Below, in pieces: positions 44,766-50,478 of a stretch of 60,288 nucleotides of DNA. Positions within the stretch are counted from its first letter, which is position 1; every line of letters starts with the position of its first letter. The DNA comes from an uncultured Clostridia bacterium (GTDB lineage: Bacteria; Bacillota; Clostridia; Christensenellales; Borkfalkiaceae). The stretch lies in assembly GCA_944372525.1 (NCBI GenBank), contig CALVZL010000004.1, forward strand, positions 1 through 60,288. The letters are read 5' to 3'. A program made the position numbers and the translations under genes. The notes under the pieces are model-generated. The model did no database searches and was not told where the DNA came from. It worked only from the letters and a program-made list of their open reading frames with translations.

Positions 44766-44856
44766 TGGCGCAGAAGACGAGATTCGAACTCGTGCTACCT
44801 GTAACGGTACTACTCCCTTAGCAGGGGAGCCCCTTGAGCCTCTTGGGTACTTCTGC
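44766..44856 (-). tRNA. tRNA-Ser (anticodon GCU)
   Basis: The minus strand folds as a class II tRNA. Acceptor GCAGAAG (44850-44856) pairs with CTTCTGC; discriminator G and an encoded CCA end at 44766. The anticodon stem CTCCC/GGGAG holds the loop with GCT (44820-44822). A long variable arm (TAGTACCGTTACAGGTA) and the T-arm ACGAG TTCGAAT CTCGT follow. GCU reads AGC and AGU serine codons; G73 and the long variable arm fit serine identity. It has its own promoter and terminators. Confidence 0.97.
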
Positions 44857-46256: not shown

Positions 46257-48533
46257 TTAAGCGGTCTTCATGAGTTTTACGGCAAGGACGGTCATGTCGT
46301 CCTGTGCCGTTCCCTGATGACGGGCGAGGGCGTTTCCCAAAATTTCTTCCGCAAGCGATTGCGGATTGAGCGGCCGCAGAGCGCTGAGGTAAGAGTACAG
46401 CTCCGCTGCCGAGCCGAACGCCGCCGTCACGCCGTCGCTCATGAAGATCATGAAGTCGTTTGCCTTCATATCCGCCTGCATGGTGGCGGGGTGGATGGCG
46501 TCGAGCATGCCCATCGGAAGAGATTCTCCTTCCAGCACCCGCATTTCGTCGTCCGAAAGGATGAACCCGACGGGCGCGCCGATTTTTACGATATCGGCTT
46601 CCCCCGTATCGAGATCGACGGCGGCGAGGTCGAGGCAGGCGAACATCTCGTCCGAAGAATAGGAGATGAGGCGGTTGACGGTGGAGAGCACTGTTTCGGA
46701 GGGCATCTTTGCCTTATAAAAGCTTTCCAGGAGCGTAAGCGTACGATCGGAGATCTCCCGCGCGCCCGCGCCGCTGCCCATTCCGTCGGACAGCGCGACG
46801 AGAAAGCGGCGTTCGTCGATCTTGAGCACGGAGTAGGTGTCGCCGTTTGCGCTTTCTCCGTCCTTGCAGCGCGAAGCGATTCCGAAGGCGGCGTCAAAGG
46901 CGGGCTTGCGTTTGAGGACGTAACAGGAGCGGCCGGGAGAGAGCGGGATCTTTTCGGAAAGGGAAAGGGGAATGCCGAGCGCTTCTCCCGCAACCGTGCT
47001 GAGCAGTTTTCCGTTTACGTCTTTAGTCAGGGTGAGGCTCACGGTCAGGGTGTTTCCCTCTCCGTAGACAAAGATCTCGGAGCTGAGGATCCCTGCCGTT
47101 GCCAGTGCGCGGGAGAGGGCCTGTTCTCCGTCGGAAAAGACGAATTCTTCGCTCTGTTCGAGGGCGATATCCCGCAGGATCTCGCTCACGCCGTGCGCCT
47201 GTTCCGCGAGCAGACGCCGGCTCTCTCTTGCGCTCTCCGACTCCTGTGCCGCGCCGCGGTATTGGGCAAGCAGACGGTTGAGCGCAAAGAGCAGTCCCGC
47301 CGCATTTCCGCAAATGTTGAGATCGGAGGGCAGATCGACAAGGGTGACCTGCCCCTTTGCGCATCCGACGGCCACGAGCTTGTTCATGGCGGAAAAGGCG
47401 TTGGAATTTTCGCATTTTTTGCGCCCGGGACAGGAGGCGCACAGCGTCTGCCGAAGCTGACGGCACAGTTGGCTCCCGAAATCAGCACGGTCAGATTCGG
47501 GCGAAAAGGCGCCTTCGATTTCGCGGAAAAGGGAGGAAACTTCATAAAGGCGCTCTCCCACGGCCCGGCGGTTTCGGTTGATCGCAATGCGCGGCAGAGA
47601 GCGCTCCCGATAAAAGAGCAGGCTTTCTCTCACGCGGGAATACAGTTTTTCGGGAAGACAGGCACAGAGCAGGACGGGCAGAAGTCCGCTCAGAAGGGTG
47701 AAGACGATCTCCGTTCCTCCTTCGGCGTACAGTCCGGAGAGAAAGCGTGCGACAAGGAAACAGGGGAGCAGGGCGAAGGCGGAGGCAAGTTTTCCGTACG
47801 GACAAAAGAGCAGACAGATGCAGGAGAAAAGCGCATATTCCGCAACGGGAAGGGCACTTCCCCAATAAAGACACAGCGGGAGAGAGAGAATGACTGCAAA
47901 GGGGACGGCAGAGGCATTTTTCAGCAGGACGGCAGAGAGAAGCAGCATCGTGAGGGAAAGCGCAAAGAAGACCTTGTCTCCGAGCGCGTTGCAGACGCCC
48001 AGCCCGCCGAAGATCCAAAGGAGGGAGAGTTCGGTGAGCTGTCCTGCAGGCAGGCGGCAGCGAAAAACGCGGTGTTGCAGGGCGTCAATGGCGCCCTCAA
48101 AGAGGACGGAGAGCAAAAAAATGAGGACGGAAAGCAAAACTTTCTGCCAGACCACGGGCAGGGGGAGAAATCCGTATCCCGTATGCGGGAAGAGAAAGAC
48201 GAAAGGAATTTGCGCAAGCGCAAGGATTGCTGCTCGCTCCAGTCCGGGTTTTCTGTGAAAGCGGCGGTACAAAAGGGAGGCGAGCAGCAGGATCGCCGCC
48301 TGTATGGCGGCAGAGAGCGTCGCGGCGGCGGAGAGCGGGACGGCGGAGAGGACGAGATATTCCGCCGCGCAGACAAGCGGATGAAAGCCGCAGAAGATCG
48401 CGGCGGAAAAGAGCGCGAAAGAGAGCGGTTCCCGTTGGGGCAGGGCAAAGTGCAGCAAAAGCATGCCGAGAAAGAGCGCGCAGTACTTGCCCGCCTCCTT
48501 TTTGGAGAGGGAGGAAAGCCGGAGATGTTTCAT
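46257..48533 (-). CDS. spoIIE: Stage II sporulation protein E-like phosphatase
   Basis: A 758-residue protein. The N-terminal ~320 residues hold about ten membrane helices (YCALFLGMLLLHFALP, LFSAAIFCGFHPLVCAAEYL and on). A central regulatory region carries a CASCPGRKKC Cys cluster. The C-terminal PP2C (SpoIIE/RsbU type) domain has SANGDTYSVLKI, ALSDGMGSGAGAREIS, and FMSDGVTAAFG, with metal-binding Asp residues kept. In B. subtilis SpoIIE dephosphorylates SpoIIAA to release sigma-F in the forespore and marks the polar septum. Single gene with an apparent Spo0A-dependent promoter. Confidence 0.93.
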   Translation of the reverse strand: MKHLRLSSLSKKEAGKYCALFLGMLLLHFALPQREPLSFALFSAAIFCGFHPLVCAAEYLVLSAVPLSAAATLSAAIQAAILLLASLLYRRFHRKPGLERAAILALAQIPFVFLFPHTGYGFLPLPVVWQKVLLSVLIFLLSVLFEGAIDALQHRVFRCRLPAGQLTELSLLWIFGGLGVCNALGDKVFFALSLTMLLLSAVLLKNASAVPFAVILSLPLCLYWGSALPVAEYALFSCICLLFCPYGKLASAFALLPCFLVARFLSGLYAEGGTEIVFTLLSGLLPVLLCACLPEKLYSRVRESLLFYRERSLPRIAINRNRRAVGERLYEVSSLFREIEGAFSPESDRADFGSQLCRQLRQTLCASCPGRKKCENSNAFSAMNKLVAVGCAKGQVTLVDLPSDLNICGNAAGLLFALNRLLAQYRGAAQESESARESRRLLAEQAHGVSEILRDIALEQSEEFVFSDGEQALSRALATAGILSSEIFVYGEGNTLTVSLTLTKDVNGKLLSTVAGEALGIPLSLSEKIPLSPGRSCYVLKRKPAFDAAFGIASRCKDGESANGDTYSVLKIDERRFLVALSDGMGSGAGAREISDRTLTLLESFYKAKMPSETVLSTVNRLISYSSDEMFACLDLAAVDLDTGEADIVKIGAPVGFILSDDEMRVLEGESLPMGMLDAIHPATMQADMKANDFMIFMSDGVTAAFGSAAELYSYLSALRPLNPQSLAEEILGNALARHQGTAQDDMTVLAVKLMKTA

Positions 48534-48563
48534 AGATCGTTACCTCTTGCGGTTTTTTCCTCC

Positions 48564-48620
48564 ATTATAGAGAAAATCCCGCGGAAAACGGGCGGATAAT
48601 TCGTCTGTGTTTGTCGAAAA
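48564..48620 (-). promoter_or_regulatory. spoIIE promoter with an upstream Spo0A box
   Basis: Minus strand: TATAAT (48564-48569), no good -35 at 17 nt. TTTGTCGAAA lies at 48611-48620 and matches the Spo0A box (TGTCGAA), about 59 nt before the expected start. A poor -35 with an upstream 0A box is the pattern of Spo0A-activated sigma-A promoters. The position fits; binding is not shown. Confidence 0.55.
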
Positions 48621-48811
48621 AAAGAAGATAGGATCTCTTTCATTTTGTCACAGAGTTGTCTTTCTCCGCATCTCTGTTTTCACAACATCTGCGAATTTTT
48701 GCAAAGAAGCGATCGCCCGGAACAGCGGGAAGGGTGCATCAAACGCAGAGGAGCCGCCGCACCGAGCGAGAAAGACCATCGCCTCAGACAAAAGCCGCCG
48801 CACCGAACGCA

Positions 48812-48843
48812 AAAAAGCGCCCCTCCGCAAAGTGCGGAGGGGG
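48812..48843 (-). terminator. Terminator of the tiny-peptide transcription unit
   Basis: CCCCTCCGCA (48821-48830) / TGCGGAGGGG (48834-48843) with GCGCTTTTTTG on the minus strand. Confidence 0.85.
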
Positions 48844-48951
48844 AAAGTTTGTTCTCATTCAGTTGTATGGGACCTTCCGTCGTATTCCTCTCGTTTTGTC
48901 CGGATAATTCCATGCGGCTCTCAGATCCTGCCGCGCACAGTCTGATCGATT

Positions 48952-48984
48952 TTAACGTTCAGTCCCTGTCATTTCGTTGTACAT
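48952..48984 (-). CDS. Ten-residue ORF with a strong ribosome binding site
   Basis: ATG 48984 encodes MYNEMTGTER and stops TAA at 48952. AGGAGGG lies just upstream, overlapping the end of the previous tiny ORF, so translation may be coupled. It is the second ORF of the isolated transcription unit between gerC and spoIIE. The peptide matches nothing I know. The SD strength is the main evidence. Confidence 0.4.
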   Translation of the reverse strand: MYNEMTGTER

Positions 48985-48996
48985 TGGTCTGCCCTC

Positions 48997-49083
48997 CTAT
49001 TCGCTGAGCGTTACCGCTCCAAAGGAAATAAACTTTAACATATCGTAATACCTCCTTTGAGAATAGATTTTTTTTGGAGACAT
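48997..49083 (-). CDS. Tiny ORF with two in-frame starts and near-perfect ribosome binding sites
   Basis: ATG 49083, with GGAGGAAGAA upstream, starts MSPKKIYSQRRYYD; an internal in-frame ATG 49041 has AAAGGAGG 9 nt upstream and starts MLKFISFGAVTLSE. The stop is TAG at 48997. The long form is 28 residues, the short form 14. The Shine-Dalgarno of the short form is itself read as codons of the long form (QRR), and the 49083 start lies in the hairpin GGAGACA / TGTCTCC. So the leader could toggle which form is made. No homologue is recognised. Confidence 0.5.
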   Translation of the reverse strand: MSPKKIYSQRRYYDMLKFISFGAVTLSE

Positions 49084-49217
49084 TTCTTCCTCCGCCTGTC
49101 TCCCTGCGATTGCGGACGTTCCTGTCCGCCTTCTCGTTGCCCTTACGTTGGAGTTAAGAAATCATTGGAGTAATCTCCCGTTCCAAAGTTGCTTTTGAAG
49201 GGTTTTCTCCCTTCTGC
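49084..49217 (-). promoter_or_regulatory. Structured leader of the tiny-peptide transcription unit
   Basis: From the expected start near 49217 the RNA can form GAAGGG / CCCTTC, GGAG / CTCC around ATTA, GCGGAC / GTCCGC, and GGAGACA / TGTCTCC, the last sequestering the 49083 start. No known riboswitch consensus is matched. Confidence 0.4.
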
Positions 49218-49223
49218 ACTTAT

Positions 49224-49251
49224 ATTATAACACAAAAATGGTATTTGTCAA
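49224..49251 (-). promoter_or_regulatory. Consensus promoter of the tiny-peptide transcription unit
   Basis: Minus strand: TTGACA (49246-49251), 16-nt spacer, TATAAT (49224-49229), 40 nt after the gerC stop. Confidence 0.85.
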
Positions 49252-49290
49252 CACTTTTCGTAAAAATTTTTCTGTTTTATTATAGGTTTT

Positions 49291-50478
49291 TTAATTTACG
49301 CTCTCTGCCTGTACCGAAAAATCGGGTTGAAGCGCAAAAAGCAGGGTTTTGTTCCATTCCCGGTATTTTTCGGGCGAGCTGCGGTAGAGGGTTCGGTTGA
49401 GGCGGAAGAGATCGCAGCCTCCCAAGACACTTTTTTCCCAAAGAGAAGAGAACAGATCGGTCAGGGTGCGTTCCGCTTTGTCGAGCTCTTCGCGGGAAAG
49501 GATCCCTTCGGTGATGTCTCCGACGGGGGAGGCGCTCGCACGGTCGTTTGTACGGAGCACGACGCGCAGGGTCAGGGAGACGGAGGGAAATCCGTCGATG
49601 TTTAACCGAACCTTTCCCTTTTCGCGCAGGACCGTAAAAGAACGTGCTTCCTCCCCCTGTTTGGCGGTAAAAGAACCCGTCGAGACGTTGTTTTCGAGAA
49701 GGGCATAGAGAAAGGTCTCTTCGGAGGAGAGCAGTGCGACCATCTTTCCTTTGGAAAAGAGCGCCGTTTGTGCCGCGCTGTAGATTTTTTCCGTTTGCGC
49801 GACGTTTTGTTTTCCGCCTTCCGCCGTTTCTTGCGCGGAGCCATCGGTTCCGCTCGCCTGATCGAGCGCGTGCACATAGGGCATATATCCGCTCTCGTCC
49901 GCGCCGTAATAGCCGACGGCAAATTCCCGGAGCGTCGTCTTCATCACGGTGCCCGCGTTTTTTGCCGCGTCCGAAAAGAGTTTTTCGAGAGCGAGAGAGG
50001 CGGCGTCGTCGATGGCGCTCGCAGAAGAGAGCAACTCCTTTGCGCTTCCTTCGCAGGCGGCGATCAGGCTGCTGTCCGGCATATATTCATTTCTCAGGAA
50101 AAAATCGAGCGCGCAGAATACGTCTTCCCGCACCAGACTCTCGCCCAGCAGAATGAGGTTGCAAAAGACAAATTTCGGAACCCAGCCTGTCTTATAATAG
50201 ATCTGTTCGATGCAGTCGGAGATGGTCTTTCCCTTTCCTTCGATCTCTACGGCGGAAGTGCCTCCCGTCGTGCGGTCGTTCCCCTTGGGGACGGCGATCT
50301 GTGCGGTGACGGAAAAGGTCTCCTCCGCGCGATCTACGCCGACGGCAAGGATCACGGCGGTCTTTTGTATGTCTACGAGTCCGAAGTCGTTATAAAAGAA
50401 GGAGATCAGCAGTGCGGCGCCGAGAAAGAGATATAATTTCAAGGGAATGCGTCCGAGCGTTCGTTTAAAATTTTTCAT
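49291..50478 (-). CDS. Ger(x)C-family spore germination protein without a lipobox
   Basis: A 395-residue germinant-receptor C subunit. The N-terminus is a membrane helix (LYLFLGAALLISFFY) followed by FGLVDIQKTAVILAVGVDRAEE, where family members usually have a lipoprotein Cys-Trp (LxGCWD) and LAIVTGLGID. No Cys is present there, so it seems to be anchored by the helix. GKTISDCIEQI, KFVFCNLILLGESL and the later LRNEYMPDSSLIA and LTDLFSSLWEKSVLGGCDLF match the GerC fold. It overlaps gerB by 14 nt. Ribosome binding site GGAGGA. Confidence 0.88.
   Translation of the reverse strand: MKNFKRTLGRIPLKLYLFLGAALLISFFYNDFGLVDIQKTAVILAVGVDRAEETFSVTAQIAVPKGNDRTTGGTSAVEIEGKGKTISDCIEQIYYKTGWVPKFVFCNLILLGESLVREDVFCALDFFLRNEYMPDSSLIAACEGSAKELLSSASAIDDAASLALEKLFSDAAKNAGTVMKTTLREFAVGYYGADESGYMPYVHALDQASGTDGSAQETAEGGKQNVAQTEKIYSAAQTALFSKGKMVALLSSEETFLYALLENNVSTGSFTAKQGEEARSFTVLREKGKVRLNIDGFPSVSLTLRVVLRTNDRASASPVGDITEGILSREELDKAERTLTDLFSSLWEKSVLGGCDLFRLNRTLYRSSPEKYREWNKTLLFALQPDFSVQAESVN

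Follow-up and report, generated by a model that had tools for sequence, protein, structure and literature searches.

Very short reading frames on RNA are known from several settings. The lambda bar minigenes consist of a Shine-Dalgarno (SD) sequence followed by ATG, one or two codons and a stop, and they act in cis. Dual-function small RNAs such as SR1/SR1P and RNAIII are free-standing, possess their own promoter and terminator and carry one open reading frame (ORF) of tens of codons. Antibiotic and amino-acid leader-peptide attenuators place tiny ORFs with strong SD sequences in hairpins ahead of a terminator, and in insects tarsal-less/polished rice is one short RNA with several very small ORFs that share a peptide motif. 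In axe-txe the two-codon mini-ORF mg2 is reported to load ribosomes, to shield the RNA in cis and to act on the downstream cistron in a way that depends on frame and distance (PMC8708949). Scans of intergenic regions report sORF and uORF motifs by comparative genomics (PMC6429828).

The unit described here lies on the minus strand of DNA from an uncultured Clostridia bacterium, within a stretch of 60,288 nucleotides that was analysed as a whole (the window). With SR1/SR1P and RNAIII it has in common that it is a small free-standing RNA with its own promoter and terminator and a short ORF, and sequence comparison alone places it among free-standing RNA genes with an sORF. Unlike these RNAs with their single ORF of tens of codons, however, it has at least three tandem ORFs of 2-19 codons. 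Like the leader-peptide attenuators it combines tiny ORFs, strong SD sequences in RNA hairpins and a terminator after them, but it has no consistent co-directional downstream gene and is inverted in 17 of 92 units. Several very small ORFs on one short RNA are also found in tarsal-less/polished rice, which is eukaryotic, unrelated and built on a shared motif, whereas the ORFs A, B and C of the unit differ from one another. The succession of SD, ATG, one or two codons and stop is that of axe-txe mg2 (PMC8708949); that minigene acts on behalf of an ordinary protein gene, while the whole transcript of the unit would be made of mini-ORFs. With the motifs reported in PMC6429828 the unit shares intergenic tiny ORFs recognized by comparative genomics, and it differs from sORFs or uORFs of a downstream gene in being position-independent and polycistronic.

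Searches with the Rfam 15 covariance models gave no family at gathering score on the unit (best chance matches at E 0.65 and 0.94) and no match in 14 related loci, and a limited open-access literature search found no description of it, which does not by itself show absence in print. Kept in most members of its genus and recurring in relatives, the unit suggests a translated small RNA of a kind not described before, a novelty that is judged from the Rfam result and this literature search. Bacteria would thereby gain an RNA type that consists of mini-cistrons alone. Two known RNAs were tried as candidates and rejected. A separate tmRNA scores over the cut-off in 36 of 41 genomes, including contig 27 of genome G000, and a separate 6S-like match at E<=0.001 is present in 33 of the 41, 17 of them over the cut-off; the 6S-like match of G000 (contig 23, 38.6 bits) is below it.

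Layout of the unit in the window

The whole unit spans 48811-49251 on the minus strand, as do all its elements given below, and runs from the promoter through a 5' hairpin, the three ORFs and their hairpins to a ACAACTGAAT box and the terminator. The initial annotation had proposed a stand-alone unit whose tiny ORFs lie in a structured RNA between a consensus promoter and a strong terminator, and these elements were found in their places. The promoter (TTGACA-16-TATAAT, 49224-49251) has 12 of 12 consensus bases and the TG of an extended -10; a promoter scan of 48400-49700 gave three promoter-like sites against 0.6 expected, and one weak antisense promoter-like site (9/12) was seen in the window, where a type I toxin-antitoxin pair would call for a conserved antisense promoter. 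The intrinsic terminator (48811-48842, stem 48820-48842) has a stem of ten pairs followed by a T run, and its hairpin was found again in relatives; terminator-like sites in the stretch as such show no excess (3 against a chance value of 1.9, sd 1.6). The RNA between the two (48812-49215) folds at -128.8 kcal/mol, better than all of 100 dinucleotide shuffles, which average -101.8 kcal/mol (z -4.7), and the tiny ORFs are kept in relatives.

Downstream of the promoter lies the 5' hairpin AGAAGGG...CCCTTC (49197-49215), seen in the fold and in the alignment, at a position where many relatives have a hairpin of the AATAAC/GTTATT type. The SD of ORF A sits in a GGAG/CTCC mini-hairpin directly 5' of the ATG (49167-49179, read from the sequence), and ORF A itself (49154-49165) is ATG ATT TCT TAA, encoding MIS, and is recognized by its start context in relatives. 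Hairpin H2, GGCGGACAGGAACGTCCGC (49112-49130), is defined by pairing over 33 sequences. It is followed by hairpin H3, GGAGACA...TGTCTCC (49076-49103), which in the window holds the upstream ATG of a 28-residue form of ORF B, as had been claimed from the sequence. The SD of ORF B (49050-49058; alignment A4, helix 2) precedes the 14-residue ORF B, MLKFISFGAVTLSE (48997-49041), which is assigned from its frame and spacing in relatives and from its cationic bias. The SD and start context of ORF C, AGGAGGGCAGACCA (48985-48998), overlaps the last two bases of the ORF B stop and ranks in the alignments with the best-conserved parts of the unit. ORF C encodes MYNEMTGTER (48952-48984, supported by its codon count in relatives). 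A variable structured 3' region (48867-48951), which in relatives contains stems of the GCGGC/CCGC and GGG/CCC types, leads to the ACAACTGAAT box (48857-48866), located directly 5' of the terminator and assigned by pattern search in relatives. ORF A and this box are additions to the elements that the initial annotation had listed. Elsewhere in the window, a tRNA-Ser (GCT) lies at 44766-44856 on the minus strand and is the sole tRNA found there.

Distribution and genomic place

Relatives were initially collected by BLAST of 61 genomes, the window genome included, in which weak matches are mostly chance; in the window's own genome one match is full-length and three others cover 16-23 bases. A sequence-only model, R1, was built from 14 aligned sequences that are themselves genus members and match by construction. 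At E<=0.01 it finds the unit in 95 of 103 genomes of the window's genus, and in 57 of the 60 better assemblies. There is one strong match per genome in 94 of the 95 and two in G005; other second matches have E > 0.001. Eight genus genomes were missed by R1. Among them G090 has a divergent copy, found by a second model, R2 (built from 41 sequences), and read by eye, and the R2 match in G064 resembles an ordinary gene. In G064, a genus genome in which no unit was found, a C-like start context was noted by eye 5' of a putative zinc-ribbon protein gene (L240/L205).

For the comparisons below, 92 distinct units were obtained by parsing 142 loci; 88 of the units belong to the genus and four to other genera (L074-L077). 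Identical cores were merged, the false matches L078 and L080 were dropped (L080 covering the same match range), L079, L081 and L082 did not reach the threshold of the local search, and the set leaves out four genus matches with low scores (G036, G086, G103, G120). The promoter has 12/12 consensus bases in 78 of these units and 11/12 in 13, and was not found in one, at a contig end; the TG of the extended -10 is present in 90. A terminator hairpin was assigned in 84 of the 92, a few of them low-scoring, and the unit length according to the box and terminator assignments is 325-913 nt (median 417, 83 units).

Beyond the genus, R2 at E<=0.1 matches 162 of 201 family genomes, many weakly. Copies in genera g26, g28, g29, g143, g145, g147 and g149 show, by eye, mini-ORFs, a box-like sequence and a terminator, and also the promoter wherever the printed stretch reached it. 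Order-wide, R2 at E<=0.01 matches 68 of 396 genomes, 30 of these within the family; of the 38 from other families 14 were inspected, several by automatic lists, and G142 (f13), G044 (f9) and G193 (f29) were convincing. Class-wide, 22 of 371 genomes match at E<=0.002, 17 of them outside the family, 15 of these with loci, and G862 (f82, from another order) was convincing. Among 20 other genomes of the G862 family, one carries the unit at 87% identity and 19 gave no match. Judged by eye and at weak scores, divergent copies occur in three more families of the order and in a second order; because model scores are weak there (E about 3e-4 to 5e-3), these assignments are made on architecture. Several loci were rejected as false matches on their sequence (L235, L238-L241, L257, L262, L264, L265, L078, and further L263, L267, L269, L273, L276) and others were dismissed on automatic mini-ORF, promoter and box lists alone (L243-L246, L248, L250, L252-L256, L270-L272, L274, L275). 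L268, L247, L251 and G735 were called neither true nor false. A blastn search (E<=0.01) of 50,697 phage records and 72,556 plasmid records with the 440-base window unit gave no match. By these comparisons the unit is real and strongly conserved. Ordinary gene finding would miss it because its ORFs are so short, and an RNA kept in 95/103 genomes of a genus and recurring across several Clostridia families is likely to matter to the cell.

With regard to its place, gerC and/or spoIIE lie beside the unit in the same orientation in 63 of the 92 units and inverted in 17, and 12 units show neither of the two within the flanks that were fetched, a few of these flanks being short. Since gerC also adjoins the unit in genera g29 and g145, some link of place is old. 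At seven loci elsewhere, in other genera or another family, ten flanking proteins are mutually unrelated: a FAD-dependent protein, a List_Bact repeat protein, a pyrimidine phosphorylase, a SNF symporter, an FtsH-like protease, a SAICAR synthetase, a TMEM164-like protein, a nucleoside phosphorylase, MgtE and a Na/H exchanger. The proposal of the initial annotation that the neighbours hint at a peptide signal for sporulation or germination is not supported, because the unit stands in either orientation to gerC and spoIIE and elsewhere beside unrelated genes. A cis-acting leader-peptide attenuator, which requires the same co-directional downstream gene, was likewise rejected on the 17 inverted units, the 12 with neither gene in the fetched flanks and the unrelated neighbours at the seven loci elsewhere. 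The inverted copies argue that the unit is independent of its neighbours, and we take it, as compared across these loci, as an independent, position-independent gene. The same annotation had made its proposal depend on conservation in relatives that keep the gerC-spoIIE neighbourhood; these were compared, and the ORFs are conserved.

The reading frames and their predicted products

The arrangement of ORFs B and C is held within narrow limits. The B stop lies 6-18 nt 5' of the C start in 86 of 92 units, and at exactly 15 nt in 71, while off-frame controls of B reach the same stop spacing in 0/92 and 1/92. ORF C reads for 8-13 codons in all 92 units; its off-frame controls fall within 7-14 codons in 10/92 and 37/92, the latter value, for C+2, being the weakest contrast. 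The C start codon is ATG in 77, GTG in nine and ACG in six of the 92 units, and codon 2 is TAC in 91. The distance from B to C is in frame in 84 units. Seven of the eight out-of-frame units still have the B stop 14-17 nt before C; L076, the remaining one, has it overlapping the C start. The two in-frame starts of ORF B, 28 or 14 residues, that had been read from the sequence are present in the window, but an upstream in-frame ATG occurs in only nine of the 92 units and is missing before B in 83, so that a dual-form gene is not what relatives preserve.

Natural fusions of B and C bear on whether the C start is used. In five units of similar sequence, grouped without a tree, the B stop is lost, B reads through C in frame and the C start is ACG; the fused product is MTNFIPREARKISDKEDRPTYNFTEGAQS and variants. 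In g28, upstream cassettes in three genomes have fused ORFs (MICVTLQKIDTEEGTPTYT, MTRTVKEDTPTYEC and MTSTASKGDTPTV, each followed by a stop) with the same ATG->ACG swap within the fused ORF, perhaps from one event. That the internal ATG is ACG in the fusions suggests that the ATG is a true start when unfused, and the pattern points to retention of ATG at starts and its elimination from internal positions. There are counter-examples: ACG occurs in L136 and G090 although their ORFs are unfused, and L258 retains ATG in its fused ORF. Taken across the relatives, the comparison shows that the frames, lengths and spacing of the ORFs are under selection as ORFs, as are the promoter, the terminator and the independence of position. 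We infer from this that the unit is transcribed and translated, and a translated autonomous unit is a reading in which we have high confidence.

Mini-ORF A is shorter and more variable. A-type sites, called from start context alone, number 97 in 78 of the 92 units; a few of them, for example MQL followed by stop, may be chance ATGs, and 14 units have no A start by this pattern. The stop follows after 2-6 codons in 89 of the 97 sites, whereas the position of the first stop varies widely in +1 and +2, being immediate in +1 for 22/97. With 63 sites of three codons and nine of two, 72 of the 97 are minigenes in the sense of an SD with an ORF of two to few codons. The peptides, such as MG, MY, MH and MNR, are short and variable. 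ORF density as a whole is high: at least three SD-preceded ORFs of up to 16 codons per 600 bp are found in 71 of 92 units against one of 174 control tiles, the latter being 600-bp tiles from 19 other loci that were unmatched in coding content. The copy number of A varies among relatives, with tandem A-type mini-ORFs in L206 (G090; MGHDF, MGQILT, MGR), in L113 (MCT, MHN, MTM), L114, L119, L120 and L125, and in L136.

The strong SD sequences and minimal ORFs could also mean that the RNA is a sponge that sequesters ribosomes or initiation factors, or causes peptidyl-tRNA drop-off, and thereby tunes translation globally. The consensus promoter, the several SDs and the 2-3-codon ORFs at 72 of 97 A sites would fit; yet a single strong match in 94 of 95 genomes (two in G005) is little for such a task, and a sponge has no need for precise B-C spacing or for the longer B and C ORFs, and we consider it unlikely. 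A purine-rich element of the GGA/TCC type stands just 5' of the short A sites in 69 of 89 cases, the pattern being broad. CsrB-like RNAs are near 400 nt in length and have many GGA motifs and a terminator. The unit has a similar length, a terminator and many GGA motifs, seen but uncounted against a control, which would allow a sponge of an RNA-binding protein of the CsrB/CsrC/RsmZ kind. CsrA, however, was matched in none of 31 genomes by a search that was positive in 3 of 14 named control genomes, and this reading was rejected as highly improbable.

A further reading is that the unit is a peptide gene cluster, in which the cationic B and the C peptides are products, acting in the cell or as signals, and the RNA is their mRNA. 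The B peptides have a net charge of +2.6 against 0.83 +- 0.19 (63 distinct peptides, 200 composition-keeping shuffles), often carry K/R at positions 2-3 and, in 76% of the 63, are hydrophobic at position 4. Among 80 distinct C peptides, Y2 is present in 79, G7 in 52, A8 in 70 and E9 in 58. In 17 units that were selected by a shared B ending, FISQGLKIS, the three codon positions of B are 98, 94 and 90% identical, against 39 and 48% for two stretches of their flanks, and a comparison of the five mini-ORFs between two f82 genomes shows four synonymous changes and one non-synonymous change, counted by eye from the alignment. On the other hand, many A peptides are too short and variable for products, and the third codon positions of B in the 17 units are 90% identical too, which argues for constraint at the RNA level as well. 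The nearest-pair pN/pS is 0.55 for B against 0.73 and 1.11 off-frame, and 0.82 for C against 1.24 and 0.72. Because it is only mildly below the controls for B, and not for C, the residue constraint is mild and a peptide function unproven. We hold the peptide gene cluster to be a reasonable possibility that falls short of being probable. Between the peptide and the act of translation as the part that counts, the odds appear about even. The natural variants, namely the fusions, the ATG->ACG exchanges, the tandem A copies and the inversions, make this question directly testable.

RNA structure, the 3' box and a proposed mechanism

H2 is paired in 92.4% of cells over 33 sequences, with changes on both sides at four of six pairs. 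In many relatives ORF B has a hairpin, CATATC/GATATG, with the SD in the loop and the B start codon in the 3' arm; it is paired in 86.5% of cells over 33 sequences, with one pair changed on both sides, and is weak in the window itself. For H2 and the B hairpin together, 17 cells are changed on both sides against 5.3 in shuffles (0/500 reach this value), and the covariation score is 0.195 against 0.132 (0/500). Two of five structure measures are no better than shuffles, namely both-side pairs (5 against 3.5, 99/500) and pair types (260/500), and it has to be considered that the shuffle controls leave relatedness in and that a single row served to draw the structure, which gives it an advantage on the slide control. 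On the 33-sequence alignment RNAalifold predicted H2 alone. Owing to the mixed shuffle results, the single-row drawing and the RNAalifold result, we regard the structure as moderately supported for H2 and weakly for the B hairpin. H3 was rejected as a conserved hairpin and excluded from the structure count, its column-wise pairing in the alignment being poor.

The ACAACTGAAT box was matched exactly in 62 of 92 units by pattern search and as a variant in 24, of which at least two look misassigned (L076 and L102, the latter with an exact box further upstream); the six units without a pattern match show close variants by eye. From the C start to the assigned box the distance is about 111 to 610 nt across relatives. 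In L010 the 3' domain is expanded (704 nt unit), and by eye a tandem GACTCCGCGGTAGCG-type repeat seems to lie between C and the box.

The box figures in a reading of the unit as a translation-sensing regulatory RNA, in which translation of the mini-ORFs would set the fold or stability of the 3' region and expose the box for pairing with a target RNA. The ORF architecture is more conserved than the residues, starts are often within hairpins and the box is conserved just 5' of the terminator, all of which is consistent with this idea. Against it, no target emerged for the box where it was compared, with the unit's own 5' end, the 16S rRNA and the spacer. Pairing with the 5' end has inconsistent helices and a small excess (mean 9.2 against 6.9-7.6 for shuffled partners). 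Complementarity to 16S rRNA is unconvincing: the best site within 16S matches the box complement at 9/11 (G009, G021), with 8/11 at that site in G019. We see this sensing role as conceivable and would not yet call it probable. In the 16S-23S spacer of G009 and G019 (L212, L214) a sequence, ACAACTGCATA, resembles the ACAACTGAAT box at 10/11; the likeness may be fortuitous, or the two may have in common an element for processing or antitermination.

The reading that we prefer, and hold to be slightly better than an even bet, is an autonomous mini-polycistronic RNA gene in which translation would pass along the tiny cistrons as a coupled chain. The strong consensus promoter would yield a structured mini-polycistronic RNA on which ribosomes start at A (2-6 codons), B (8-19 codons) and C (about 10 codons), the SD of B being displayed in a hairpin loop in many relatives. 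ORF A may act as a cis minigene that loads ribosomes and shields the RNA, in analogy to what is reported for axe-txe mg2 (PMC8708949). As the B stop codon lies at the SD of C, we propose that termination at B feeds initiation at C. The output would be this coupled B-C translation, which could yield a small cationic B peptide, determine how the 3' domain folds, or do both; that domain, ending in the ACAACTGAAT box, may be the effector part. The cationic character of B is a point at which the coupled-chain reading is less secure, since the K/R share of B exceeds that of its +1 frame only slightly (0.28 against 0.23, with 0.11 in +2). A bolder version, which we put forward as speculation and think rather improbable, is that the unit is an ancient free-standing Clostridia RNA whose function is being translated: with A repeats followed by B and C, ribosome occupancy would report ribosome availability or termination efficiency and switch the 3' fold, and internal starts would tend to be erased by selection upon fusion.

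Two observations were made at other loci. The near match L265 (G781, minus strand), which is outside the unit family count, has a C-like start, GGAGGAAACGCCAATGTACAAT, that opens an ORF of 50-odd residues and by eye looks like an AgrD-type peptide precursor. At L026, on contig 16 of G006, repeats of the TGGCTAACTTTTGCC...ACCTAATGAGGGGGT type are present.
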